A DNA stretch of 15,976 nt, from NCBI GenBank assembly GCA_027295245.1, contig JAPULF010000042.1:1-15976 (forward strand). The letters run 5' to 3'. The notes below the pieces were generated by a model. That model was not told the DNA's origin. It searched no databases and was given only the letters and a program-made list of their open reading frames with translations. Made by a program: the position numbers and the translations under genes. The stretch comes from Planctomycetota bacterium. Lineage in GTDB: Bacteria; Planctomycetota; Phycisphaerae; UBA1845; UTPLA1. Below are positions 1,989-15,641 of the stretch, in pieces (the stretch's first letter is position 1; each line of letters opens with the position of its first letter).

Positions 1989-2861
1989 TTAGCCCGCCGC
2001 ACGCATCGCTTTCACGAGTGGAATCGGGTCGTGGATGGTGAGCGAAGTCGCGCGACCGTCCGCCAACTGAAACCGAATCCGGGCCGCCGGCGAACCTTGG
2101 GGGGCGAAGACGTCGGGTTCGATTCTATGTAGAACCCGCAAAACACCGTCGCCGCGTTTGATTGACAGGGCGCCCCGACGGTTGAGAAGCACGTTGAATA
2201 CCTCGTCCTCGCCGCGACCGAACGTATATCGACCGAGATAGGCTGACTTCTGTTCGTCCGAAATGCCGAGGCTGAGCGTCGTATTATCTGCGTCGCCCAG
2301 CGACTCGAGATACTTCGCCACCTTGTTGGCGTGTTTTCGTGCTTCCGGCGAGTTGCGACTTTGACTGCCGCCGTTCAGGGCGTGTTGCAGAAGCGTGATG
2401 CCGTGCGGACCGTGGATGCGTTGGATGCCCGGCACGGCTTCGACCGCACTCTTGACGGCTTCCAGATGGCCGAACATGGCGAACGTGAACAGGTTGGGCC
2501 GGGCCCCGTGTTCGATCAGCAAGGTTGCGATGTCGCGGCGGCCTACGTGCGAAGCGGCGCCGAGGGCGCTTTCCCAATCACCGAACCCCCAGTCCCACGA
2601 GGCCTTCGCCAGCGCAGGACGCTTGGTGATCAGCTCCTTGACGCGGTCGAAGTTGAAGTGAGAAGCCCCCACGACCGACTCAACCGACTCGATATCCTGC
2701 CGCGGAAAGCCGGGCGAGAGTTCACCCTTGACTATGTTCGTCGCCCCTTCGGGGGCCGGGGACCCACGCGCTTCCGACAGATTGAGTCCGAAGAGCGCTG
2801 CGGCGGTGCAGGCCCCGGGAACCACGGTCAGGACTTCTCTGCGTGTCAGCGTTTTGTTCAT
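1989..2861 (-). CDS. Tat-signal ankyrin-repeat protein with a C-terminal DUF3471-like domain
   Basis: This is a 290-residue protein, probably exported. Residues 1-32 look like a twin-arginine signal: basic TLTRREVL with Arg7-Arg8, a hydrophobic stretch VVPGACTAAALFGLNL, then SEARGS. Residues about 58-170 carry degenerate ankyrin repeats, clearest in ESALGAASHVGRRDIATLLIE, followed by FAMFGHLEAVKSAV and GITLLQHALNGG. Residues about 203-285 contain YLGRYTF, a beta-rich stretch and FQLADGRATSLTIHD, resembling the DUF3471 tail found on serine-hydrolase-like secreted proteins; that assignment is tentative. No catalytic motif is seen, so a binding role in the envelope is the likeliest reading. GGAGG at 2871-2875, 9 nt before the ATG, supports the start. 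The gene lies 233 bp downstream of the DUF1579 gene on the same strand, too far to assume one operon. Confidence 0.8.
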   Translation of the reverse strand: MNKTLTRREVLTVVPGACTAAALFGLNLSEARGSPAPEGATNIVKGELSPGFPRQDIESVESVVGASHFNFDRVKELITKRPALAKASWDWGFGDWESALGAASHVGRRDIATLLIEHGARPNLFTFAMFGHLEAVKSAVEAVPGIQRIHGPHGITLLQHALNGGSQSRNSPEARKHANKVAKYLESLGDADNTTLSLGISDEQKSAYLGRYTFGRGEDEVFNVLLNRRGALSIKRGDGVLRVLHRIEPDVFAPQGSPAARIRFQLADGRATSLTIHDPIPLVKAMRAAG

Positions 2862-3094: not shown

Positions 3095-3616
3095 TCAAGA
3101 CGCCCGCGTGTAGTTGATCTCCATGCCCTTTACCTCTTGGCCGTCCGGGCCCGGGAAGTACATCGCCATGCTGTGATGATCGTTGTCCTGGAGCGTGATG
3201 ACGGAGCGTTTTTGCATGGGTTGGCCGGTCTGCGGGTTGGTGCATTCACCGACCATCGTCCAGGCCTTGCCGGACGCGTCCAGGTCGCCGGTCTCATGTT
3301 GCATGAAGGTCGAGGCGGTGTCGATCCAGAAGCCTTCGTACTTCTTGGTGACGGTGTTGTAGCCCCAGAAGCCGCGTCCCTCGAAGTCAGGAAAGGGCCC
3401 GTCGTTCTTGTCGCCTTTGTACTCCTGCCGGAGGAATCGCCCGCCCAGGTCGGACGTGTTGGTCATGGCTCCGGTGGAGATGAACGGCTCACCGGGCCCC
3501 ATCCACATCTTCACCTCGGCTCGAAAAGTACCGACGAACGGTTCAAAATTCTTGTGGGCGTCGTCGAGTGCGCCCATCTGGGTACATTCGGCGGCCGTTG
3601 ACGATTGCTCGGTCAT
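3095..3616 (-). CDS. DUF1579 family protein
   Basis: A 173-residue protein of the DUF1579 family, function unknown. The family signature is a compact, probably beta-rich fold predicted to bind a small ligand. Visible matches include HKNFEPFVGTFRAEVKMWMGPG near the N-terminus, then TSDLGGRFLRQEYKGD, FEGRGFWGYNTVTKKYEGFWID and, near the C-terminus, GQEVKGMEINYTR. No signal peptide or membrane segment is seen, so it is probably cytoplasmic. The frame could open at TTG 3634, but ATG 3616-3614 has AAGGA at 3624-3628 with 7-nt spacing, so I use the ATG. The upstream phosphohexomutase gene is closed by its own terminator, so this gene probably has its own promoter (see 3635-3662). Confidence 0.88.
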   Translation of the reverse strand: MTEQSSTAAECTQMGALDDAHKNFEPFVGTFRAEVKMWMGPGEPFISTGAMTNTSDLGGRFLRQEYKGDKNDGPFPDFEGRGFWGYNTVTKKYEGFWIDTASTFMQHETGDLDASGKAWTMVGECTNPQTGQPMQKRSVITLQDNDHHSMAMYFPGPDGQEVKGMEINYTRAS

Positions 3617-3623
3617 GGTCGTT

Positions 3624-3628
3624 TCCTT
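3624..3628 (-). promoter_or_regulatory. Ribosome binding site deciding the DUF1579 start
   Basis: AAGGA on the minus strand lies 7 nt before ATG 3616. It falls inside the frame that would follow the alternative TTG at 3634, which favours the ATG. Confidence 0.7.
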
Positions 3629-3634
3629 TCCCAA

Positions 3635-3662
3635 AATATCTTGCCTGAAGTGCTTGGTTCAA
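3635..3662 (-). promoter_or_regulatory. Possible sigma-70-type promoter for the DUF1579 gene
   Basis: On the minus strand TTGAAC (3662-3657) is followed after 16 nt by GATATT (3640-3635), four of six matches in each box. It lies just downstream of the terminator at 3694-3730, where a new promoter is needed. The predicted leader would be only about 12 nt and would barely include the RBS, which lowers confidence. Confidence 0.35.
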
Positions 3663-3693
3663 ACCGCGCGGTTGGCCCGCCCCATCGGCCTCG

Positions 3694-3730
3694 AAAAAAG
3701 CGATGACGTGACATGATATCACGGAATCGC
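3694..3730 (-). terminator. Intrinsic terminator of the phosphohexomutase-like gene
   Basis: Reading the minus strand from 3730: GCGAT, TC, CGTGAT, loop ATCAT, GTCACG, TC, ATCGC, then six T. The outer 5-bp stem and inner 6-bp stem (the last pair a T-G wobble) are separated by a symmetric 2x2 internal loop, and the T-run starts directly after the stem. It lies 50 nt past the stop codon at 3781. Confidence 0.75.
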
Positions 3731-3780
3731 CCCGCCGGCCAAGTCGGCTCCACGCCCCCGATTCAATGCTCAGGCTGAAT

Positions 3781-5367
3781 TCAGATCCGACGCCCGAAGC
3801 GCTCGCCCAGCAGGGGAGCCACCTCCAGGACACGGCGATCGACCATCTTCCGCGTACGGGCCTCCACGTTCAGCCGCAAGACGGGGTCGCCGGAACTCTT
3901 GCGAACGTTGAACCACCAGTCGGGGTAGCGCACCGTGACGCCGTCGAGTTCGTCGATTTCGGCATCGGTGAATCGGTCCCGGATCTTTCGAAGCGACGCC
4001 TCTCGGTCGGGACTCCGGAAGCTGATCTCGCCGGAGGGGCGAAATCTCTGCAAAGGGCGGGCCAGTTCGCTGAGCGTCTTGCCGGTATCCGTCAGGATGT
4101 TGATCAAATGGACCAACGCCAGAAATCCGGATTCGCAAAAAAAGTTGTCGCGGAAATAGTACCGGCCGCACAGCCCGCCGCCGAAGACGGCATTGGCGTC
4201 GGCCATCGATTTCTTCATAAACGCGGCCCCCACCCGCTCTCGGATCGGAACGCCGCCGACCCGTTGGATCTCCTCGGCCACGACCCGGCTCGATCGATGG
4301 TCGTACACGATCGACGCCCCGCCCTCGCGTTCGAGAAATGCCCGGGCCAGCAGGGCCGTGATAATGTCCGGACGGACCATCAAGCCGCGATCGTCCAGGA
4401 ACACGCACCGAGCGGCATCGCCGTCAAAGCACACACCCAACGACGCCCGATGGGCCTTGAGCATCTTGCGAAGACCCTTGAGATTCGCCGGATCCAGCGG
4501 ATCGGGAACGTGTTCAAAGCGGCCGTCGTGCTTGAAATTCAGCGGGACGATGGTCAACCGCTTGACGTTCTTGAAGACGATCGGCATCCAACGTCCGGCC
4601 GAGCCGTTGGAGGCATCAACTGCGACCCTGAGCGCCCGTCCCCGTGGTTCCCGTCCGCGCAAGAACCCGAGCACATACTCGCGATACGCCTTGGTCACAT
4701 CGGACTCGGCGTAGCCGGCGGTCGTGCCGGTCTCATGTCGCGGAACGCGACAGGCGATTTCGCGGATGCCGTTCATCCCGGTGTCCTGTCCCAGGGGAAC
4801 GCCCTTCGCGCCGCAGATCTCAAAACCGTTGAATTCGATCGGGCGGCGACCGCCGGTGGTCTGAATGCCCCCGCATGCGCCGAGGTGATTCACGGCGAAG
4901 TAAAGCTGCGGCGTGTCGATCATGCCGAGATTCAAGACGTTGGTGCCGGTGGCTCGGATGCCGTCGGAAAGGCCGCGCTGCAGCTCGGTGCCGTGGGGCC
5001 GCGTGTCGCGCCCGATGACGATCGCGCGACAGGCCGGGTCGGCCCGCTCGTAGCCTCGCAGCTTGGAGCGTAGGTATTGGGCCGCGGCATGGCCGATTCG
5101 CCAGGCGGATTCTTGGGTCAGCGGGGCCGGCACGGTGCCGCAGATGTCGAACTCGTCGAACAGGGCTTCGACGCCCGAAACCGGCTTTGCTCTATCGACC
5201 GAGATCGAGACCCGTTCGCCGGTGCCCGCGTCGGGGTTGAATTGACAGTTGGGGCACTTCGGGAAACTCGAACGCCGCCGGCCGCGGCAGATGGCGTTCG
5301 AGATCTTGATATGCTCCTCGCCGGCGCAGAACTTATAATAATCGGCGGTCGATTCCGATTCGATCAT
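3781..5367 (-). CDS. Phosphomannomutase/phosphoglucomutase homologue with all active-site loops altered (probable pseudoenzyme)
   Basis: The 528-residue product follows the alpha-D-phosphohexomutase pattern end to end, for example GRDTRP (119-124), DTPQLYFAVNHLG, VDASNG, YYFRDNF and YPDWWFNV. The key residues, however, are replaced: YDIRG is FDICG (73-77); the phosphoserine loop TASHNP is TGGRRP (171-176), with no Ser; metal loop DGDxDR is DGDAAR (315-320), losing the third Asp; GH before the sugar loop is GA (380-381); sugar loop GGExSGH is GGGLCGR (396-402); phosphate loop RxSNTEP is RKSSGDP (489-495). I checked these codons on the DNA. Residues 1-45 add four Cys (14, 27, 38, 41), the last pair CPNC, a possible zinc ribbon. 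No mutase activity is expected; a binding or regulatory role is inferred. ATG 5367 precedes the Cys-rich segment but lacks a clear RBS. The frame stays open upstream to 5715, overlapping acs, and that part looks non-coding. It is divergent from acs. Confidence 0.85.
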   Translation of the reverse strand: MIESESTADYYKFCAGEEHIKISNAICRGRRRSSFPKCPNCQFNPDAGTGERVSISVDRAKPVSGVEALFDEFDICGTVPAPLTQESAWRIGHAAAQYLRSKLRGYERADPACRAIVIGRDTRPHGTELQRGLSDGIRATGTNVLNLGMIDTPQLYFAVNHLGACGGIQTTGGRRPIEFNGFEICGAKGVPLGQDTGMNGIREIACRVPRHETGTTAGYAESDVTKAYREYVLGFLRGREPRGRALRVAVDASNGSAGRWMPIVFKNVKRLTIVPLNFKHDGRFEHVPDPLDPANLKGLRKMLKAHRASLGVCFDGDAARCVFLDDRGLMVRPDIITALLARAFLEREGGASIVYDHRSSRVVAEEIQRVGGVPIRERVGAAFMKKSMADANAVFGGGLCGRYYFRDNFFCESGFLALVHLINILTDTGKTLSELARPLQRFRPSGEISFRSPDREASLRKIRDRFTDAEIDELDGVTVRYPDWWFNVRKSSGDPVLRLNVEARTRKMVDRRVLEVAPLLGERFGRRI

Positions 5368-5631
5368 CGTCGCGAATGGTACCGCATGACGACGGGCGAG
5401 GCCACAACGAATAGAGATCCTCGGTCGCACGCGAATGCCGCGTCGACACGTTTGTAATACGCATGAAACATCCTTGTGCCCCGAACGCCGCCTCCCGTCA
5501 GTCCGGAGGGTCGCGATCACAAATTGACGGGGCCCGTGTCGCGCCGATATCATGCCGACGCGGTAAATCACAGGCCGGACTCCGTCCCTCGTCCGGCACA
5601 CACGCAAACAATCGATTCGGAGTAAATCGGC
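5368..5631. other. Divergent intergenic region between the phosphohexomutase homologue and acs
   Basis: This 264-bp region must hold the promoters for both directions. The one rightward candidate is listed separately (5524-5553). A small inverted repeat CCTCC/GGAGG with a 9-nt loop lies at 5491-5509. I found no convincing leftward promoter and no RNA gene. Confidence 0.6.
5524..5553 (+). promoter_or_regulatory. Candidate sigma-70-type promoter for acs
   Basis: TTGACG (5524-5529) and TATCAT (5548-5553), each five of six to consensus, are separated by 18 nt. The start of transcription would lie near 5560, giving a leader of about 70 nt before the acs ATG. Confidence 0.45.
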
Positions 5632-7608
5632 ATGACAGACGGGGCAGGCATCCAGTCGGCGGCGTCGGAATCGGAACGATACCCCCCCCCGGCTGCTTTC
5701 GTGGCCGACGCCCATATCAAGTCACAGGAGGAGTACGAGCGGCAGCACCAGCGTTCGATCAAGGACCCCGAAGGATTCTGGGGCGAGATCGCGGCCGACT
5801 TTCACTTTTTTCGGAAATGGGACCGCGTGCTGGAGTGGAACCGGCCGTTTGCGAAGTGGTTTGTCGGAGGAACCACCAACGCGAGTTACAACTGTCTCGA
5901 TCTCCAGATTGAGCGCGGGCGAGGCGATTCCACCGCGATCCTTTGGGAGGGCGAGCCGTGCGACGCCGCCGGAAACCCCAAAGAGATCAAGCGGCTGAGC
6001 TACCGCCAGTTGCTTCAAGAAGTGTGTGTATTCGCCAACACCCTCAAGAAGTTGGGGGTCGAGAAGGGCGACAGGGTCACGATCTATCTCCCCATGGTTC
6101 CCGAACTTGCGATCGCCATGCTGGCCTGCGCCCGAATCGGCGCACCGCACTCGGTGATATTCGGCGGATTCAGCGCCCAGGCGATCGTGGACCGCCTGGA
6201 GGACGCCCGGTCCCGCGTGATCATCACGGCCGACGGTGGTTTCCGGCGCGGCGGCATCGTGCCGCTCAAGGCCAACGTCGACGAAGCCTGCGGAATGACC
6301 GACCTCGTAAAAACGGTCGTCGTACTGCGGCGATGCGAAAACGACGTTCCCATGGTTGCCGGCCGCGACGTCTGGTGGCACGACCAGGTCAAGGGGGCCT
6401 CCGATACCTGCGAGCCCGAACAACTCGACAGCGAGCACATGCTGTTCCTCTTGTATACCAGCGGCAGCACCGGCAAGCCGAAGGGAATCCTCCACACCAC
6501 CGCAGGCTACATGATTCACACCGCGTATACGTCGAAACTCATCTTCGACCTCAAGCCCGACGACACCTACTGGTGTACGGCCGACATCGGATGGATCACC
6601 GGACACAGCTACATTGTGTACGGCCCGCTGCAAAACGGCGTGACGACGCTGATGTACGAAGGCGCCCCCAACCATCCGGACTGGGATCGATTCTGGGCGA
6701 TCTGCGACCGACATGCCGTCACGAAGTTCTATACCGCGCCGACCGCGATTCGGGCATTCATGCGTCAGGGGGCGGCCTACCCGGAAAAACACGATCTATC
6801 CAAATTGAAACTGCTCGGTACCGTCGGAGAGCCGATCAACCCCGCGGCATGGAAATGGTACCACGAGATCATCGGCGGCCGCCGCTGCCCGATCGTGGAC
6901 ACCTGGTGGCAAACGGAAACCGGTGGCATCCTGATTTCACCGCTCCCGGGAATCACCGATACGAAGCCCGGATCCGCGACCAGGCCTTTCTTCGGCATCG
7001 ACGCGGCAGTTGTGGACAAGGACGGTTCGGAAATGGGGCCGAACGAAAACGGGCTTCTCGTCATTCGGCGTCCCTGGCCTGGAATGTTACGCGGCATCTA
7101 CGGCGACGAGAAACGTTTTCACAAGGAATATTGGTCGGAGATCGAAGGCGTGTATTTCACGGGCGACGGGGCCCGATGCGACCAAGACGGGTATTTCTGG
7201 CTCACCGGACGCGTCGACGATGTCATCAAGGTATCGGGCCACCGGCTCGGAACGGCCGAGGTCGAATCGGCGCTGGTCTCGCACCCCAAGGTCGCCGAGG
7301 CGGCCGTTGTGGGTTTTCCCGATGAAATCACAGGTGAGGCGATCGCCGCATTCGTGACGCTGAGAGGCGGCGAAACGCCCGACCCGGGAATCATCGATGT
7401 ACTGAAAAAACACGTCGCAAAGCAGTTGAGCGCGATTGCACGCCCAAAAGACATTCGATTCTCCGATGCGTTGCCAAAGACTCGAAGCGGAAAAATCATG
7501 CGTCGCCTGCTTCGAGAATTGGCTACCAAAGGTCGCGTGGAGGGCGATACCAGCACTCTCGAAGATTTCTCGACTATCGCGAATTTACGCGGAAACACGG
7601 AAGAATAA
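5632..7608 (+). CDS. acs: Acetyl-CoA synthetase (AMP-forming acetate-CoA ligase)
   Basis: Activates acetate with ATP and CoA to acetyl-CoA through an acetyl-adenylate, in the cytosol. The 658 residues match the family's usual length. Visible motifs: the P-loop-like [11 protein letters not shown] (275-285); [10 protein letters not shown] around 423-432, including the Trp associated with acetate-size selectivity; [22 protein letters not shown], the hinge and A8 region; and the C-terminal [12 protein letters not shown] with Lys621, equivalent to the catalytic Lys609 that Pat-type acetyltransferases modify in enteric Acs. All catalytic residues appear present. GGAG at 5619-5622, 9 nt before the ATG, fixes the start. 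An unbroken run of nine C at 5682-5690 (codons 17-20) is a possible slippage site. The DUF3052-like gene follows 258 bp later on the same strand, probably as a separate unit. Confidence 0.97.
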
Positions 7609-7652: not shown

Positions 7653-7854
7653 CAAATGGATCCGATAGGATCGGCGCGGGCAGCGACACCGTATTGCAAG
7701 GGAATGCGGGACCAAAGCTCGAATCTGAGCCGCGCGTATGACATCATCGCGCGGCAAGGTTCACCGAGAACGAGTTCCGTTCGAGTGGATCGACCCTGAT
7801 CGGAATCAATTGGTTCGTCGAAAGGTTGACCAATTAAAACGCGTCTCGAGGGAT

Positions 7855-7860
7855 AAGGGA
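7855..7860 (+). promoter_or_regulatory. Ribosome binding site deciding the DUF3052-like start
   Basis: AAGGGA ends 6 nt before ATG 7867. The alternative ATG at 7738 has no purine-rich sequence before it. Confidence 0.6.
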
Positions 7861-7866
7861 CTAACG

Positions 7867-8568
7867 ATGGCAATGGAATCAGCCTGTACATTGAGAGTAG
7901 GACGAGAACGATACGATGGAAAAGTCCGCATGGACGGCGGCTACATCGATTTTTCGGGTCCGACCAAGTTCCGCTTTCGCCTTGCCGAGATTCGCAAGCC
8001 GAAACGCGAAGCGGACGAGATCGGTTTCGATTTTCACGGAACGAATGTCAAGATCCAGCTCGACGAGAAAACGGCGACTCGGTGGATCGATTCGATTCTG
8101 AACCCCGAAAGCCTCGCCGAAAAGCTGGGCGTCAAGTCGGGGCACACCGTCCGCGTGATGAACCTGGACGACGGCGAACTCGTCAGTTCGATTCGGGACA
8201 AGAAAGCCACCATCGTCTCTTCAGCGCCGGATCGGTGCGACCTCGTCATGCTCGGCGTCGAGCGCGCCGCGGAGCTTCGGCAGATCGGCGACCTCAGCGA
8301 CTCCCTCGCTCCGGGCGGCGCAATCTGGGTCGTGCTGCCCAAAACCGTGCGAACGGTCACCAAGGCCAACGTCATTACCGCGGCCCGGGAAGCGGGGCTC
8401 AGCAACGTCAAGACCGTAGACTACTCCGAGACACAGGCCGCCTATAAGGTCATACGACCAAACGGTGCGAAGAAGAAGCGCCGTACATCCGGCAACGGCT
8501 CGTCGTCGAACGGTGGAGGCGCGGCCCGCAAGCCGCGAAAGGCGACACCCGAGGCCGCCGCGCGATAA
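7867..8568 (+). CDS. DUF3052-like protein with an extra N-terminal domain and basic tail
   Basis: A 233-residue cytoplasmic protein of unknown function in three parts. Residues 1-80 are a beta-rich segment (VGRERYDGKVRMDGGYIDFS, later GFDFHGTNVKIQLDE and RWIDSILNP) that I do not recognise. Residues 81-197 match the DUF3052 pattern: LAEKLGVKSGHTVRVMN, then CDLVMLGV, LAPGGAIWVVLPK, and a GLSNVKTVDYSETQAAYKVI ending. Residues 200-233 are a low-complexity tail rich in Lys, Arg, Ser and Gly, consistent with nucleic-acid contact. The same frame is open from ATG 7738 (276 residues), but ATG 7867 has an AAGGGA RBS 6 nt upstream and starts where structured sequence begins. It lies 81 bp upstream of the first uvrA gene on the same strand, so co-transcription is plausible. 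A repair link is guilt by association only. Confidence 0.75.
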   Translation: MAMESACTLRVGRERYDGKVRMDGGYIDFSGPTKFRFRLAEIRKPKREADEIGFDFHGTNVKIQLDEKTATRWIDSILNPESLAEKLGVKSGHTVRVMNLDDGELVSSIRDKKATIVSSAPDRCDLVMLGVERAAELRQIGDLSDSLAPGGAIWVVLPKTVRTVTKANVITAAREAGLSNVKTVDYSETQAAYKVIRPNGAKKKRRTSGNGSSSNGGGAARKPRKATPEAAAR

Positions 8569-8581
8569 TGCGGCGACCGCA

Positions 8582-8601
8582 AGGCTCGTTTGCACGAGCC
8601 T
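8582..8601 (+). other. Perfect 8-bp hairpin between the DUF3052-like gene and uvrA
   Basis: AGGCTCGT (8582-8589) and ACGAGCCT (8594-8601) pair perfectly around the 4-nt loop TTGC, 13 nt after the upstream stop. No T-run follows. It may be a partial terminator, an RNA processing site or a leader element that lowers uvrA expression relative to the upstream gene. Confidence 0.45.
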
Positions 8602-8649
8602 CGTCGTGGGTCGCGCCAATCGCCGCCGGTCGTTACCGTCACGCAAACG

Positions 8650-10587
8650 ATGGAACCCAAGACGATCGAAGTCCGCAACGCTCGAGAGCACAATCTGCGC
8701 TCCGTGACCGTCTCGTTGCCGCGAAATGCACTGATTGTCTTCACCGGTGTGTCGGGCAGCGGAAAGAGTTCGCTGGCGTTTGACACCTTGTACGCCGAAG
8801 GACAACGGCGATACATCGAGTCCCTGTCTTCGTACGCCAGGCAGTTCATGGGCCAGATGCCAAAGCCCGATTGCGACCAGATCACCGGACTATCACCCGC
8901 GGTTTCGATCCAACAAAAAGCAACCGGTTGGAATCCCCGCTCCACGGTCGGCACCGTCACCGCCATCTATGACTATCTGCGGGTGCTCTTTGCCCGTATC
9001 GGCACCCAGCACTGCACCGCCTGCAACCGGGCGATCACCGCGCAGTCGCGCGATCAGATCGTCGGCGGCGTGCTCTCGACATTCGCCGGAGACTCGAAGG
9101 CGAGGCCGCAGGTCCTGATTCTGGCCCCGGTGGCCCGCGGCCAGAAAGGTGAGTTTCGCGACCTGTTCGACGATCTCGTTCGCGACGGCTACGTACGCGC
9201 CCGCGTGGATGGAACGTTGGTCGACCTGCACAACGATCTCGCCCTCGCCAGGAACCAGCGGCACGACATCGAGGTCGTGATCGATCGAATCGCGATCGAC
9301 CCCCAGTCCCGTTCGCGGCTCGCCGAAGCGGTAGAAAACGGACTCCGCGTCGGAAACGGAACCGTTGTCGTCACGCCTGCGGGTGATCGAGAAACGCCGG
9401 TTGCCCCGAATGCCGGGCGTCGAAAGAACACACGATCCGGCGGTTCGGAAGATCGCGTGTTCTCCTCGCATTATGCGTGTACGCGGTGCAGCCTGTCGTT
9501 CGAGCCTCCGACACCGCAAATGCTGTCGTTCAATTCCCCGGCAGGGATGTGTCCGACCTGTGACGGCTTGGGCGAATTGACCGACTTCGACCCCGACCTG
9601 ATGGTGCCCGACCCGTCGCTGAATTTCTGGTCGCCTTGCATCGCCCCCATGCGGACCAGGATCGGGCGATGGCGTCGACACATATATGAAGGCGTGGCTC
9701 AGGCCGTCGGAATCGACTTGAGTCGGAAGTGGAATGCGCTTTCAAAAGCCGAACGGCACACGATTCTGTACGGCACCGGCGATCGGCATATCGCGTTTGC
9801 CTGGAAATGGTCGGGCGGAATGTGGCGACACGGCGGTACGTTCGACGGGATCGTCGGCGAGCTGCGCGAAAAGTACCGCAAGGCCACGTCGTCATTCGTC
9901 CGGCGGTTTTACGAAAAGTTCATGCGCAAGGGACCCTGCACAAACTGCAAGGGCTCGCGGCTCACGCCCCAGGCCGCCGCGATTCGATTGCCGACGTCGG
10001 GCAAGCGGGCCGGGCCGGCCATTCACGAGCTTTGTTCGTTGAGCGTGACCGAAGTGCTTGACGTAGTGGACCGAATCGAACTGACGCCGGTGCAACACTT
10101 GATTGCCGACGAAGTGCTGAAGGAAGTGCGAACCCGTTTGCAATTCCTGCTCGACGTCGGCTTGCACTATATGGCGTTGAATCGACCCGCACCGACGCTG
10201 AGCGGCGGCGAGTCGCAACGAATCAGGCTGGCGGGCCAAATCGGATCCGGCCTGGCCGGCGTGCTGTACATCCTCGACGAGCCGAGCATCGGTCTGCACG
10301 CCCGAGACAATCAAAGCCTGCTGAAAAGCCTGATAAAACTCCGCGACTTGGGCAACACCGTTGTCGTGGTCGAACATGACGAGGCCACCATGCGCGCGGC
10401 GGATTACCTCGTGGACTTCGGCCCGGGCCCCGGTGTTCGTGGCGGGCGCGTCGTGGCCGCCGGCAGTTTCGAGGAAATCGTCGCCGAAAAGTCCTCGATC
10501 ACGGGGCGGTATCTGTCGGGACGTTCCGCGATCGACATTCCGAAGCGTCGCCCCGTCCTGCCCCGTAAGTCCGAGTCGTCGTCATGA
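8650..10587 (+). CDS. uvrA: UvrA-like protein, first ABC half (N-terminal half of a split UvrA)
   Basis: This 645-residue product corresponds to the N-terminal half of UvrA, the damage-recognising ATPase of nucleotide excision repair. In order: Walker A GVSGSGKSS (33-41) and LAFDTLYAEGQRRY; HCTAC near 121-125; a UvrB-binding-type domain (about 117-250, with VLILAPVARGQKGEF and DGYVRARVDG); a zinc module C277, C280, C301, C304; the DNA-binding insertion domain (about 305-428); C430/C433; signature LSGGESQRIRLA (517-528); Walker B with Asp543-Glu544; and the His loop VVVVEHDE. All ATPase residues look intact. The protein ends in the interdomain linker (KRRPVLPRKSESSS) and its TGA overlaps the next ATG (ATGA). 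ATG 8650 gives the usual UvrA N-terminus; an in-frame TTG at 8590 lies in a hairpin loop. No clear RBS precedes the ATG. Confidence 0.92.
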   Translation: MEPKTIEVRNAREHNLRSVTVSLPRNALIVFTGVSGSGKSSLAFDTLYAEGQRRYIESLSSYARQFMGQMPKPDCDQITGLSPAVSIQQKATGWNPRSTVGTVTAIYDYLRVLFARIGTQHCTACNRAITAQSRDQIVGGVLSTFAGDSKARPQVLILAPVARGQKGEFRDLFDDLVRDGYVRARVDGTLVDLHNDLALARNQRHDIEVVIDRIAIDPQSRSRLAEAVENGLRVGNGTVVVTPAGDRETPVAPNAGRRKNTRSGGSEDRVFSSHYACTRCSLSFEPPTPQMLSFNSPAGMCPTCDGLGELTDFDPDLMVPDPSLNFWSPCIAPMRTRIGRWRRHIYEGVAQAVGIDLSRKWNALSKAERHTILYGTGDRHIAFAWKWSGGMWRHGGTFDGIVGELREKYRKATSSFVRRFYEKFMRKGPCTNCKGSRLTPQAAAIRLPTSGKRAGPAIHELCSLSVTEVLDVVDRIELTPVQHLIADEVLKEVRTRLQFLLDVGLHYMALNRPAPTLSGGESQRIRLAGQIGSGLAGVLYILDEPSIGLHARDNQSLLKSLIKLRDLGNTVVVVEHDEATMRAADYLVDFGPGPGVRGGRVVAAGSFEEIVAEKSSITGRYLSGRSAIDIPKRRPVLPRKSESSS

Positions 10588-13500
10588 CCGGCACGACCGC
10601 GCTCAAGAAGCGAAAAGCGGGCCGGCAAGCAACCGCGGCCCGCAAAAAAACCGATCGCCGATTGCCGACTGCCGCGCCGCACGAACACGGCTGGCTGATC
10701 GTACGCGGGGCCCGACACAACAACCTCAAGAACATCGACGTCGAGATTCCCCTGGGTCGATTCGTTTGCGTAACCGGCGTGAGCGGCTCGGGCAAGAGTT
10801 CGTTGGTCAACGACATCGTTCGAGAGCAACTGACCGCCACGTTGAACGGCGCGGAAAAGGTCCGACCCGGAGACCACGACGCGATTCTAGGCACCGACCG
10901 CCTCGACAAGATCATCGACATCGATCAGTCCCCGATCGGCCGAACGCCTCGCAGCAATCCCGCGACCTACATCAAGCTGTTCGACGAGATCAGGGGGCTT
11001 TTCGCCAAGCTGCCCGACAGCCAGGTTCGCGGCTACGCCCCGGGGCGATTCAGTTTCAATGTGCCCACCGGAAAGGGCGGCGGCGGACGATGCGAGGCCT
11101 GCGAGGGCAACGGGTCAAATCGGATCGAGATGGACTTTCTGGCGGACGTGTGGGTGGAGTGTCCCCTGTGCGAGGGGCGACGCTTCAATCACGAGACGGT
11201 CCAGGTCCTCTACAAGGGCAAGAGCATCGCGGACGTGCTGAACATGGACGTGCAGGAAGCCCTGGAGCACTTCGACGCCATTCCGAAGATTCGCGCGATG
11301 TTGTCGACGCTTCACGACGTCGGCCTGGACTACCTCAAACTGGGCCAGTCCAGCACGACGCTGTCCGGCGGCGAAGCCCAGCGAATCAAGCTGGCACGCG
11401 AATTGGTCAAGCGCTCGACCGGTGGAACGCTGTACCTGTTGGACGAGCCCACCACCGGGCTTCACTTTGACGACATTCGAAGACTGCTGGCCGTACTACA
11501 CGGCTTCGTGGATGCCGGCAATAGCGTCATCTGCATCGAACACAACCTCGATGTCATCAAGACGGCGGACTGGGTCGTCGATCTGGGTCCGGAGGGCGGA
11601 GACGGCGGCGGCCGCGTGGTCGTGGCCGGAACGCCCGAGGCCGTTTCCGAGTGCCGGAAGTCGCACACCGGCCGCGTGCTTCGAGATGTTCTGACGCCGC
11701 GACGACAATCGCCGAGCCGATCGAAGCAAAAGCTCGGAGGCAAACGAAAAAAAACCGTTCGCAGGACGGACGACGCAATCCATGTTGTGGGCGCTCGCGA
11801 GCACAATCTCAAGGACATAACCGTGCGGATCCCGCGCGGCGCGATGACCGTGTGTTCGGGCGTCTCCGGAAGCGGAAAATCCAGCCTGGCCATCGACACC
11901 GTCTATACGGAAGGCCAACGGCGCTACGTCGAGTCTCTTTCCGCCTATGCCCGGCAGTTCTTGGGGCAACTGCAAAAGCCGAAGGTCGACCACGTCTACG
12001 GCTTGAGCCCCGCCGTTGCGATCGAGCAAAAGGCCGCCACCAAGAGTCCGCGCTCCACCGTGGGAACCGTGACGGAAATCTACGACTACATGCGGGTATT
12101 GTGGGCCCGCGTCGGGCAACCGTATTGTCCCAGGTGCGACATCCCGATCGGAACCCAAAGCAGCGAGGAGATTGCCGACAGCATCGCATCGATGCCCGAC
12201 GGAACAAAGTTGCTGTTGTGCGCCCCGATCGAGCGAGGTCCCGGCGAGTCGTGGGACGCCCTGTTCGCCCGCTGTCGGGCCAACGGCTACACCCGAATTC
12301 GAATCGACGGCAATGTTTGCGAGTTGTCGCAAGAGCTGAGCATCGATGCCCGTCGCCGACATGACGTGGAACTCGTCGTCGATCGCGTAGCGGTTCGTTC
12401 CGCGGCAGTCCGGCGGATCGGCGACTCCGTCGAGCAGTGTCTGGCGGTCGGTGATGGCGTCATGGTTGCCGTCGATTCGGACAGCGGCGCCGCAAAACGG
12501 TTTTCGCAGCACTTTTCCTGCGATTCCTGCCAAACCAGTTACGACGAACTGACGCCCCACCACTTCAGCTTCAACGCCCGCATGGGATGGTGCAAACACT
12601 GCGAGGGTCTGGGCGTGCAGCGAGGCACCGGCGTCGAATCCGTCGTGATCCAGCCGCACCTGTCAATTCTCGGCGGGGCAATTGCCGGCTGGGAGAATGT
12701 CGAAAAGCAACCGATGCTCCGAGCAATGCTCGAGGCCCTGGCCAACGCAATCGGTTTCAAACCGAAAGCACCGCTGAATACCCTCACCGACGCACAGCGA
12801 CACGTGCTGTTGTTCGGACTGGGTGATCGTTGGGTCGAAGCCAAGGGCAAGGCGGCGATCGGGCTCCGGTTTCAATGGAAAGGGTTTTTCCCGACCATCG
12901 ACGAGGCCACGAAGATGTCGTGGCGATATCGAACGAAACTGGAACATCTCGTGACCGACGTTCCGTGTACGCGGTGTTCCGGCGGGCGGATTCGACCCGA
13001 GGCGACGGCCGTGCGGGTGGGCGACCGGTCCATCGTTCAGGTCTGTGCGATGCTCTTGCGAGACTCGGCCGCATTCTTCCGCGAGTTGAGGCTGGACAAG
13101 CGCCGCACGCGGGTTGCGGGCGAGCTGCTGCACGAAATCAAGTCGCGGCTTCAGTTTCTGGTCGATGTCGGGCTGGACTATCTCTCGCTGGATCGCCAGG
13201 CGCCGACCCTCAGCGGAGGCGAATCCCAGCGGATACGGCTGGCCTCGCAGATCGGCAGCGGTCTCACCGGTGTACTCTACGTGCTCGACGAGCCGACCAT
13301 CGGTCTCCACCCGCGCGACAACAAGCGATTGATCGCCGCCTTGCACAAGCTGCGCGATCTGGGCAACACACTGTTGCTCGTCGAGCACGATCGGGAGGTG
13401 ATTGAGTCTTCGGATCACGTGATCGACTTCGGCCCGGGGGCGGGGGCTCACGGCGGACACGTCGTCGGTGCCGGTTCGCCGCGCGGCATCCGCCGACAGC

Positions 13501-15641
13501 GACGTTCGCTGACAGGTCGATACCTCGCCGGAAAAGCGTCGATCGGCGTGCCCACAAACAGGCGGCCCGTCCAATGGCCGAACGGCGCCGACGACGACGC
13601 ATCGCCGCCCGCATTGACCGTCATGGGGGCCCGACACAACAACCTCGACTCGATCGACGTGTCCTTTCCGATCGGACGATTCAACTGCGTCACGGGCGTG
13701 TCCGGATCGGGCAAGTCTTCGTTGGTCTCCGAGGTGCTGTATCCGGCCTTGGCCGCCCGCATTCATCGGGCCCGACTGACGCCGGGCGCCCATCAGGAGA
13801 TTCGCGGGGCCGATCACATCGACAAGGTTATCAGCGTGGACCAACAGCCCATCGGCAACTCCCCCAGTTCCAACGCCGCTACCTACACCGGGGTGTTCGA
13901 CGTCATACGCGAGCTGTTCGCCAAGCTGTCCGACAGCAAGATTCGCGGCTACACCGCCAACCGATTCAGCTTCAACCGTGCCGGCGGCCGCTGCGACGAC
14001 TGCAACGGGCTTGGGCAGGTCTGTCACGAGATGCACTTCCTGCCCGACGTATGGGTGCCCTGCGAGTCGTGCGGCGGGTCGCGTTACAACCGCGAGACGC
14101 TGCAGGTGCGTTACAAATCGAAGAGCATCGCCGACGTGCTGGCCATGCCCGCGTCCGAGGCCGTCGAACACTTTGCCAACGTGCCCAAGGTCCGCCGGAT
14201 GCTGAAGACGATCGAAGACGTCGGTCTCGGCTACCTGCAATTGGGCCAGGCCGCCCCGACCCTCAGCGGCGGCGAGGCCCAGCGCGTCAAGCTTGCCGCC
14301 GAACTGGGACGCCCCAACACCGGCAAGACGCTCTACATCCTCGATGAGCCGACCACCGGACTGCACTTTGAAGACTTGCGAAATCTGCTCGACGTCCTGC
14401 ACCGGCTCGTCGACTTGGGCAACACCGTTCTTTGCATCGAGCACAACCTGGATGTCATCAAGACGGCCGACTGGATTGTCGATCTCGGGCCGGAGGCGGG
14501 CCGGGACGGCGGACGCATCGTCGCGGCCGGCGCCCCCGAAGACGTCGCAAAAGTACCCGAGTCTCACACCGGCCGTCTCTTGGCCGCCGTGCTGAAAACC
14601 GGCCCGCGCGTGCAACGAGAGCGTTTCGATGCCAAGGCCGCCGCCGCCAAAGCGGCCCGAGAGGAAAAGCTTGCGGCCCCCGAAATCGAATCCGGCGTCC
14701 GAATGCCCTGGGAGCGAAACGGTCGAAAGTGGCACACCGGCGACCGCGTCAGCCGCGATGGGCAGAAGATCGAATGGGAGGGCCGGGCCCTGGCATTCGT
14801 CGTCGATCTGATCGAGAAGCAAGGCGGGAAAAAGTTGCTGCCCACGGTCTGGAATGATCGGGCTCGCGTCGAAATCAATGCCAGGGCCCCCGACGGCCTT
14901 TCGCAGAGTTCCGCCCCGTGGTTCTTTCACGCCCGCACCGGGGCCCGTTGGCTGCTGGATTTTTCCTTTCGCGTGCCGCGATCGACCTTCACCGGCCCGG
15001 CACTGAAGAAACGATTGAAACTGAAGACGCTGGACGAACGCGAGGACATCCCGGCCTACGGATCGGAGCCGCGGGTCCGTGTCCGCAGGGCCGGCGAAAT
15101 GGACGACGTCCGCGTGCAGGTATACGACAAGAAGGAAGTCTCCACGTCGGCGTTCCGAACCTTCGTCTCGACCGCCCTGAAATCTCACGTGCAACATCTG
15201 AGCCGCCTGGCCGGCGACACCGCGATGGCGACCCCGTGGAAGGTCGACGGCCGCGCCTGGCACCTGTCCCAGAAATCCATCCGAGGCCGAGAGTCGAAGG
15301 AATGGAAGCCGATCGTGTTGATGGAGTTGATCGGAAAGTTGAATCGCATTGCCCCCACCATGAAGGCCGACTGGTCGCGCAAGATAACGGTCTCGCTCCA
15401 GAATGCGAACGGCGCAAGCATTGGCATGATCGTTACGAACAACCGCTACGGCCTGCGCGTCATATTGCGAACGCCCGCGGGCAGATTCACACCGACCATG
15501 ATCGAGCACCTGGGCCTGTATCCCGAAGTCAAGACCGCCAAGGGCACGGGCCAGGTGAGCTTCTGGGTGCAGACCCTGGACCAGGTCCATGGCCCGACCT
15601 TGAAAGCGGTTGTGACGGCCGCCGTCGAGTCCAAGCCGTAG
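10584..15641 (+). CDS. uvrA: Giant UvrA-like protein: three ABC modules plus a C-terminal extension
   Basis: The 1685-residue product contains, in order: a basic leader (1-35); a UvrA C-terminal half (Walker A 65-73, zinc C170/C173/C193/C196, signature 260-271, Walker B D287-E288); a basic linker; then a complete second UvrA. That unit's N-half has Walker A from 426, zinc C646/C649/C670/C673, signature 876-887 and D902-E903. Its C-half has Walker A from 1038, zinc C1137/C1140/C1160/C1163, signature 1227-1238 and D1254-E1255. All His loops (EHN or EHD) are present. Residues about 1337-1685 are outside standard UvrA (about 940 residues) and contain two similar units starting PWERNGRKWH (1375) and PWKVDGRAWH (1551). 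With the upstream gene this makes two full UvrAs, probably a DNA-damage-binding excision repair ATPase. The ATG overlaps the upstream TGA by 4 bp, indicating translational coupling. Its frame extends upstream only to a TAA at 10566. Confidence 0.92.
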   Translation: MTGTTALKKRKAGRQATAARKKTDRRLPTAAPHEHGWLIVRGARHNNLKNIDVEIPLGRFVCVTGVSGSGKSSLVNDIVREQLTATLNGAEKVRPGDHDAILGTDRLDKIIDIDQSPIGRTPRSNPATYIKLFDEIRGLFAKLPDSQVRGYAPGRFSFNVPTGKGGGGRCEACEGNGSNRIEMDFLADVWVECPLCEGRRFNHETVQVLYKGKSIADVLNMDVQEALEHFDAIPKIRAMLSTLHDVGLDYLKLGQSSTTLSGGEAQRIKLARELVKRSTGGTLYLLDEPTTGLHFDDIRRLLAVLHGFVDAGNSVICIEHNLDVIKTADWVVDLGPEGGDGGGRVVVAGTPEAVSECRKSHTGRVLRDVLTPRRQSPSRSKQKLGGKRKKTVRRTDDAIHVVGAREHNLKDITVRIPRGAMTVCSGVSGSGKSSLAIDTVYTEGQRRYVESLSAYARQFLGQLQKPKVDHVYGLSPAVAIEQKAATKSPRSTVGTVTEIYDYMRVLWARVGQPYCPRCDIPIGTQSSEEIADSIASMPDGTKLLLCAPIERGPGESWDALFARCRANGYTRIRIDGNVCELSQELSIDARRRHDVELVVDRVAVRSAAVRRIGDSVEQCLAVGDGVMVAVDSDSGAAKRFSQHFSCDSCQTSYDELTPHHFSFNARMGWCKHCEGLGVQRGTGVESVVIQPHLSILGGAIAGWENVEKQPMLRAMLEALANAIGFKPKAPLNTLTDAQRHVLLFGLGDRWVEAKGKAAIGLRFQWKGFFPTIDEATKMSWRYRTKLEHLVTDVPCTRCSGGRIRPEATAVRVGDRSIVQVCAMLLRDSAAFFRELRLDKRRTRVAGELLHEIKSRLQFLVDVGLDYLSLDRQAPTLSGGESQRIRLASQIGSGLTGVLYVLDEPTIGLHPRDNKRLIAALHKLRDLGNTLLLVEHDREVIESSDHVIDFGPGAGAHGGHVVGAGSPRGIRRQRRSLTGRYLAGKASIGVPTNRRPVQWPNGADDDASPPALTVMGARHNNLDSIDVSFPIGRFNCVTGVSGSGKSSLVSEVLYPALAARIHRARLTPGAHQEIRGADHIDKVISVDQQPIGNSPSSNAATYTGVFDVIRELFAKLSDSKIRGYTANRFSFNRAGGRCDDCNGLGQVCHEMHFLPDVWVPCESCGGSRYNRETLQVRYKSKSIADVLAMPASEAVEHFANVPKVRRMLKTIEDVGLGYLQLGQAAPTLSGGEAQRVKLAAELGRPNTGKTLYILDEPTTGLHFEDLRNLLDVLHRLVDLGNTVLCIEHNLDVIKTADWIVDLGPEAGRDGGRIVAAGAPEDVAKVPESHTGRLLAAVLKTGPRVQRERFDAKAAAAKAAREEKLAAPEIESGVRMPWERNGRKWHTGDRVSRDGQKIEWEGRALAFVVDLIEKQGGKKLLPTVWNDRARVEINARAPDGLSQSSAPWFFHARTGARWLLDFSFRVPRSTFTGPALKKRLKLKTLDEREDIPAYGSEPRVRVRRAGEMDDVRVQVYDKKEVSTSAFRTFVSTALKSHVQHLSRLAGDTAMATPWKVDGRAWHLSQKSIRGRESKEWKPIVLMELIGKLNRIAPTMKADWSRKITVSLQNANGASIGMIVTNNRYGLRVILRTPAGRFTPTMIEHLGLYPEVKTAKGTGQVSFWVQTLDQVHGPTLKAVVTAAVESKP

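Follow-up and report, generated by a model that had tools for sequence, protein, structure and literature searches.

Within the alpha-D-phosphohexomutase superfamily, GlmM is a working enzyme that also regulates the diadenylate cyclase CdaA. PGM5, also called aciculin, is the only case comparable to the protein described here that was found in our literature search. According to the accessible part of one report, PGM5 is an inactive phosphoglucomutase of vertebrates and, in humans, a structural muscle protein (PMC7761743). A prokaryotic Glc-1,6-BP synthase family is described, in the available text, as making Glc-1,6-BP by active phosphotransfer (PMC9426568). The possibility that enzymes carry hidden second functions is raised in the part of PMC10211241 that could be consulted. 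The literature search, which covered few subscription papers, found no bacterial pseudo-phosphohexomutase and no ribbon-bearing one.

The window analyzed here is a stretch of 15,976 nucleotides of planctomycete DNA. It carries a PMM/PGM homologue in which every catalytic loop is replaced. Relatives with replaced loops occur elsewhere in the same order, frequently in genomes that have a further mutase.

Results

The homologue is encoded on the minus strand, from an ATG at 5367 to a TGA at 3781, and is free of stops over 528 residues. All four Pfam domains, PGM_PMM_I to IV, exceeded their cut-offs. The first-pass annotation had described an intact 528-codon frame with every catalytic loop changed, and direct reading of all six loops bore out both points (Table 1). 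The phosphoserine loop of active enzymes, TASHNP, reads TGGRRP, the metal loop DGDxDR reads DGDAAR, the sugar loop GExSGH reads GGLCGR, and the phosphate loop RxSNTEP reads RKSSGDP. A pseudoenzyme is a homologue from which conserved catalytic residues are missing, as they are here, and on these readings the window protein is predicted to be catalytically inactive. The same annotation had also credited the gene with its own terminator, but a pattern scan of window positions 3560-5800 found none.

Table 1. Coordinates of the mutase gene, its motifs and its conserved neighbors in the window
Feature	Position	Strand	Basis
Pseudo-phosphohexomutase gene, 528 aa + stop	3781..5367	-	Open frame, Pfam, AlphaFold model
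Four-cysteine (zinc-ribbon-like) motif, Cys14, Cys27, Cys38, Cys41	5245..5328	-	Conservation
FDICG, replacing YD(I/V)R(G/A)	5137..5151	-	Loop reading
TTGGRRP, replacing TTASHNP; catalytic Ser is Gly173	4840..4860	-	Loop reading
FDGDAAR, replacing FDGDADR; third metal Asp is Ala319	4408..4428	-	Loop reading
VGAAF, replacing VGHxF; His is Ala381	4219..4233	-	Loop reading
GGGLCGR, replacing GGELSGH; Glu398 to Gly, Ser400 to Cys, His402 to Arg	4162..4182	-	Loop reading
RKSSGDP, replacing the phosphate loop R(K/P/A)SNTEP	3883..3903	-	Loop reading
Acetyl-CoA synthetase (acs), divergent neighbor	5632..7608	+	Pfam, synteny
DUF3052-like gene, third member of the conserved neighborhood	7738..8568	+	Pfam 26.1 bits vs cut-off 22.7, synteny

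An AlphaFold model built from 75 sequences (mean pLDDT 90.3, pTM 0.83) found its best PDB match in the X. citri phosphoglucomutase 5bmn (TM 0.93 by target, 31% identity). The PMM/PGM fold thus appears, in the model, to be retained, as the first-pass annotation had supposed. In the N-terminal module, pLDDT averaged per ten residues was 68-86, and it fell below 50 for residues 49-62. By its four-domain sequence and its fold, the protein belongs by descent to the alpha-D-phosphohexomutase superfamily. The PMM/PGM equivalog model NF007088 gave it 363 bits against a cut-off of 618; three canonical proteins, P0004 (468 bits), P0013 (445 bits) and C181 (435 bits), also scored below this cut-off.

The first-pass annotation had envisaged orthologues with the same replaced loops and a canonical paralogue elsewhere in the genome, and both were found. 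The public protein P0001 is 98% identical to the window protein over 528 residues, without gaps (8 of 528 positions differ), and its loops are those of the window except for FDIRG. An error of sequencing or assembly is therefore judged unlikely. P0002 and P0003 (86% and 83% identical, 76 and 88 differences, again no gaps) have most of the changed loops in common with the window, but retain the third Asp of the metal loop (DGDADR). The change of YDIRG to FDICG that the annotation had listed is present in the window protein but not fixed: among this protein and its nearest three relatives, two have Cys and two have Arg there. The paralogue with canonical loops, C181, lies on a 3.1-kb contig of the window's own assembly (G000) and bears the ribbon. 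Database names place the close relatives in uncultured Planctomycetota/Phycisphaerae, and P0001 and P0008 are labeled phosphomannomutase/phosphoglucomutase in public records.

A wider search scored 8000 candidates, of which 2361 passed the threshold. Among the best 120 of these 2361 relatives, which were analyzed, the loss of catalytic features was bimodal: at least three of six features were replaced in 63, none in 54, and two in 3. We therefore rejected the idea of a one-off freak gene, since many relatives also have changed loops. The large changed clade has Gly at the position of the catalytic Ser in 59 of 63 proteins (Ala in 3) and Asp in place of the sugar-loop Glu in 61 of 63. The window clade (the window protein and P0001-P0003) has the same Ser to Gly change, but Gly and not Asp at the Glu position. 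At the GH position His is still the commonest residue of the large clade (11/63), the commonest residue at the SNTE positions occurs in 10-25 of 63 proteins, and the YDxRG arginine is Arg in only 6. R120, D121, R123 and R358 are retained in 57, 63, 63 and 60 of the 63 changed proteins, and the loop residue Arg489 in 55. At the NGxK position, 14 of these proteins have Lys and 32 have Arg (46 together); the window protein has Glu.

The mean entropy of the six loops is 0.0-0.58 bits in canonical proteins versus 1.03-2.52 bits in the changed ones (63 rows), and the phosphate loop, at 2.52 bits, is the most variable loop of the changed clade. Over the whole domain, entropy rises from 1.15 bits (canonical) to 1.51 bits (changed). 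The surface motif R202/D203/R207/P209, considered as a hallmark of the changed proteins, was dropped because canonical family members have the same motif.

The tree alignment comprised 132 rows after removal of 15 of 147 as near-identical (>88%), and 64 of the 132 were hand-picked for a smaller tree. With the loop columns left out, the changed proteins all fell on one side of a single branch. Within the changed group, the window clade branched off first and adjoined the partly changed P0009 and P0020, which were labeled canonical in both trees and excluded from the canonical set in the entropy and residue counts. In the 64-row tree, the joint clade received a bootstrap value of 96 and an SH-aLRT value of 68, and 93% of 200 bootstrap trees contained it; the quick tree of 132 rows gave it a support of only 50. 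By the AU test, a grouping of the window clade with the canonical P0004-P0007 was marginally rejected (p-AU 0.036), and a topology in which P0009/P0020 group with the large clade, leaving the window clade outside, was not (p-AU 0.31). On these alignments, a common origin of the window clade and the large changed clade is favored over a separate loss in the window clade, although it is not proven. We also noted three intermediates, P0009, P0012 and P0020, which have intact phosphoserine, metal and sugar loops but are without the histidine of GH and without the phosphate loop SNTE.

The four cysteines of the N-terminal module were conserved in all 134 rows inspected (4/4 window clade, 63/63 changed, 63/63 canonical and 4/4 independently changed proteins). 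Such invariance is expected of a zinc ribbon, and the cysteines may well bind metal. A known ribbon family or structure for the N-terminus was sought in Pfam, which gave no match, and in the PDB, where the module gave one match at E 2.1, taken as chance. Opposite to the loops, the entropy of the module drops, from 0.96 bits in canonical to 0.67 bits in changed proteins. G012, whose copy diverges most within the family (43% identity), retains the module (E 2e-25). Among the matches listed for the family and the class sample, the module occurs once per genome (twice in G000) and in the mutase frame; the exceptions are an apparent contig break in G167 and two weak matches (E 0.003 and 0.03). Seven short database proteins also match the module, and at least two of them, P0122 and P0124, run on into the start of the mutase. 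P0123 (72 aa) and P0126 (82 aa) are possibly standalone modules, as though stripped of the entire mutase body.

The gene was found in 16 of the 17 genomes of the window's family, changed in 14 and canonical in two (G008 and G013), and none of the 14 changed copies contains an internal stop. The remaining genome, G015, is 97% complete and has neither the pseudo-mutase nor acs, through joint loss of the two neighbors or an assembly gap. In other families of the order, the 21 best-scoring loci are all canonical. Further loci of the same order comprise four changed and two nearly canonical ones, the rest being canonical; four same-order genomes that matched the window protein (G228, G189, G058 and G240) were excluded from these loop counts. 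The class-wide sample consisted of 48 loci, 28 from genomes outside the listed match places (many of them low-scoring) and 20 spread over families. In 46 of the 48, Ser, Asp, Glu, His and SNTE are retained wherever the piece covers them. The other two, G095 (L228) and G130 (L246), belong to one genus outside the order and have partly changed loops. Neither genome has a match to the PGM2-like mutase described below, G095 lacks the ribbon and G130 is a fragment; perhaps they represent another, different retirement.

In a 94-genome tree, in which a row was called changed if at least three of five sites differ, the 17 changed rows require five changes, at least four of them forced by well-supported branches. 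This tree excludes four fragments (L230, L243, L245 and L246), L009 as near-identical, and, of the 21 canonical loci from the same order, 11.

The first-pass annotation had argued that the gene is not decaying but selected for a role other than catalysis, and had looked to dN/dS for support. Purifying selection on the pseudoenzyme is evident in related genomes, where two pairs of closely similar changed genes were compared, L008/L009 (0.060 by NG86, 0.046 by YN00) and L016/L017 (0.154 and 0.074), and it is for these pairs that the dN/dS part of the argument stands. Four more distant changed pairs gave 0.20-0.40 (NG86) at dS of 0.97-1.78. Seven canonical pairs gave 0.03-0.30 and one nearly canonical pair 0.08; for most pairs the ratio comes from NG86 alone, without a YN00 value. 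Taken with the changed loops of the orthologues, the absence of stops and the presence of other mutases, the ratios of 0.05-0.15 uphold the argument as a whole, and retirement under selection is well supported for the changed group and would extend to the window gene.

A search with PF02878 showed that every one of the 17 family genomes has two to four superfamily members. Fourteen of the 17 include a copy of GlmM type, recognized by the motif GGEGNGG, and the one tested passes a GlmM cut-off. The window assembly, which is 75% complete, gave neither a GlmM-type nor a PGM2-like match. We call a further mutase of these genomes "PGM2-like"; the one such protein tested against NCBIfam passes no cut-off. 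Its loops (TASHNP, DPDADR, GAEESYG or GMEESYG, and RPSGTEP) were seen in all 11 changed family genomes read and in G015.

At 1e-80 the PGM2-like mutase matched in 14 of the 248 genomes of the class, and at 1e-60 in 22 of the 71 genomes of the order. Within the family it is present in 12 of the 14 changed genomes, in neither of the two canonical ones, and in G015. In the order search (1e-60), a changed copy is accompanied by this mutase in 16 of 18 genomes. The two without a match are G000, which has the canonical C181, and G012, which has a mutase with SASHN and DPDSDR. All 18 changed genomes have some further member of the superfamily in addition to the changed copy and any GlmM; its loops were read in all but G003 and the four genomes outside the family. 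In family f3, ten genomes (G074, G164, G175, G178, G184, G194, G201, G204, G210 and G219) have neither a ribbon-bearing PMM/PGM nor a PGM2-like mutase.

A prediction set beforehand, that changed copies would be found in family f2 and in G148 of family f3, was borne out in part. The nine PGM2-like-positive genomes outside the family comprise four changed (G148, G027, G237 and G259), two nearly canonical (G243 and G258) and three canonical ones (G216, G255 and G256). G257 is both canonical and PGM2-like-negative. G013 is canonical despite a further mutase, which is of yet another type (TPSHNP, DPDSDR, GGEESAG). G013 and the PGM2-like-positive genomes that are canonical or nearly so indicate that a second mutase permits the loss, but does not compel it.

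Four of the five losses fall on PGM2-like-positive branches, which make up 11.5% of the eligible length (P = 0.0008, simple binomial). The fifth loss is placed on the stem of the changed family clade, which is reconstructed as PGM2-like-negative, probably because the incomplete window genome, also without GlmM, is its first branch. A phylogenetic pairs test with four pairs on supported branches was not significant (median p 0.5). Where the changed copy and the PGM2-like gene share a contig (G002, G010, G011 and G014), they are far apart.

Gene neighborhoods were compared for 28 loci, over about 9 kb on either side where the contig allows. The mutase and acs form a divergent pair in 9 of the 14 changed family genomes, including the window, and the acs neighbor is absent within about 9 kb of the other five. 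At the shared loci, acs is followed by the DUF3052-like gene (with a gap of about 2.6 kb in G006). The same neighborhood was found at none of 15 other loci (11 canonical, three changed, one nearly canonical). The neighborhood that the window has in common with eight changed genes provides independent support for shared descent. Further along the window, two tandem UvrA-like frames (665 and 1685 aa) occupy 8590-15641 on the plus strand, and both contain a single UvrA interaction domain and a single DNA-binding domain. The second frame also has three ABC stretches and is extended at its C-terminus, an arrangement that looks like two copies of UvrA distributed over two frames. Positions 1989-2861 (minus strand) encode a hypothetical protein with weak ankyrin-repeat matches below threshold and, by eye, a signal-like N-terminus.

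Discussion

The catalytic centre was lost but the gene was kept across the family, so the protein probably has a second, non-enzymatic job. We consider it reasonably probable that an ancestral enzyme with a ribbon-dependent second function lost catalysis once another mutase covered for it, and that it survives as a non-catalytic scaffold or regulator. The ancestor would have been an ordinary PMM/PGM of this planctomycete order that already bore the N-terminal four-cysteine ribbon. In lineages with another alpha-D-phosphohexomutase, the catalytic centre would then have been lost, and fold and ribbon retained. The ribbon would contact a partner, which may be a protein or a nucleic acid, and the mutase body would serve as a platform that positions or oligomerises this contact. 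Canonical relatives may have the same second function. We hold more tentatively to a broader reading, in which the ribbon-bearing PMM/PGM proteins of this order are bifunctional, combining catalysis with a regulatory or scaffolding function borne by the ribbon, and in which about five strippings of redundant catalysis have exposed the latter. The second function cannot be universal, since a search with the window protein at 1e-50 gave no match in 22 of 248 class genomes, including G015 and ten of family f3.

It is very unlikely that the gene is merely decaying, with redundant catalysis gone and the frame simply not yet broken. Decay would agree with the presence of another mutase in the same genomes, with loops far more variable than in canonical proteins and with the missing gene in G015 (where acs is missing too, and where an assembly gap could be responsible). 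However, the dN/dS values of the two close changed pairs largely refute it for related genomes, and the retention of all four cysteines in 63 of 63 changed proteins, the lack of stops in the 14 changed family copies and the gapless alignment of P0001-P0003 despite their many differences from the window all argue against it. The near-uniform replacements of Ser by Gly and of Glu by Asp in the large clade resemble remodelling rather than drift, as expected if the cleft had been rebuilt for another ligand or chemistry. Since the other loops, at the GH and SNTE positions, have no new consensus, and the window clade does not have the Asp, such a new enzyme nevertheless seems improbable.

Among the roles that the first-pass annotation had proposed, the sugar-phosphate sensor is weakened by the phosphate loop, the most variable of the six; the data agree better with a scaffold or a partner in regulation. 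The SNTE, YDxRG arginine and NGxK positions contact phosphate or substrate. Since the changed proteins have lost the YDxRG arginine and the SNTE residues, with variable replacements, and since NGxK has Glu for its Lys in the window protein, we think it unlikely that the cleft still binds a phosphosugar and that the ribbon reports this binding. Retention of R120, D121, R123, R358 and Arg489 in most of the 63 changed proteins, and of Lys or Arg at the NGxK position, would suit such a sensor, as would the likeness to PGM5, which according to the available text binds glucose-1-phosphate without activity (PMC7761743). It is similarly doubtful that the changed protein is a partner subunit that binds and regulates the PGM2-like mutase. 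The two co-occur, and GlmM, of the same superfamily, has been solved in complex with CdaA (PDB titles 7olh and 9g69). Yet redundancy accounts for the co-occurrence without any contact, G000 and G012 have a changed copy without a PGM2-like match, and the two genes are distant on the contigs that they share.

Our preferred reading, a retired enzyme kept as a scaffold or regulator, makes hidden second functions of enzymes directly testable, because the losses track a second mutase. If the bifunctional reading is true, pseudoenzymes reveal a hidden function of a living enzyme. There is also a practical consequence, as names such as those in the records of P0001 and P0008 lead pathway reconstructions to assign to genomes an enzyme for which this gene is probably not a source. 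To our knowledge, pseudoenzymes of bacterial central metabolism have seldom been seen together with canonical ancestors, intermediates and repeated losses in one order. Pseudoenzymes as such are already known, one of them in this superfamily; a bacterial four-cysteine form with repeated loss and a correlate of the loss was not found in the literature searched.

In domain order and fold, the window protein resembles the bacterial PMM/PGM enzymes of P. aeruginosa and X. citri, but it lacks their set of catalytic residues and has about 65 additional N-terminal residues, comprising ribbon and linker. GlmM with CdaA offers a precedent for a superfamily member solved bound to another protein; GlmM itself is active, however, and the window protein is only 20-24% identical to the listed GlmM structures. 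The Glc-1,6-BP synthases, as far as the available text describes them, are likewise a functional offshoot of the superfamily in prokaryotes, but the window protein lacks the phosphate-carrying serine (PMC9426568). PGM5 is closest in kind, an alpha-D-phosphohexomutase fold without mutase activity, if the window protein is inactive as we infer. According to the accessible part of the report, however, PGM5 largely keeps its active site and substrate binding (PMC7761743), whereas the serine, metal, sugar and phosphate loops of the window protein are replaced. The window protein also differs from PGM5 in being bacterial and in its N-terminal four-cysteine motif, and its gene is the sole copy of its own lineage in 15 of 16 family genomes, with loops that were lost about five times.
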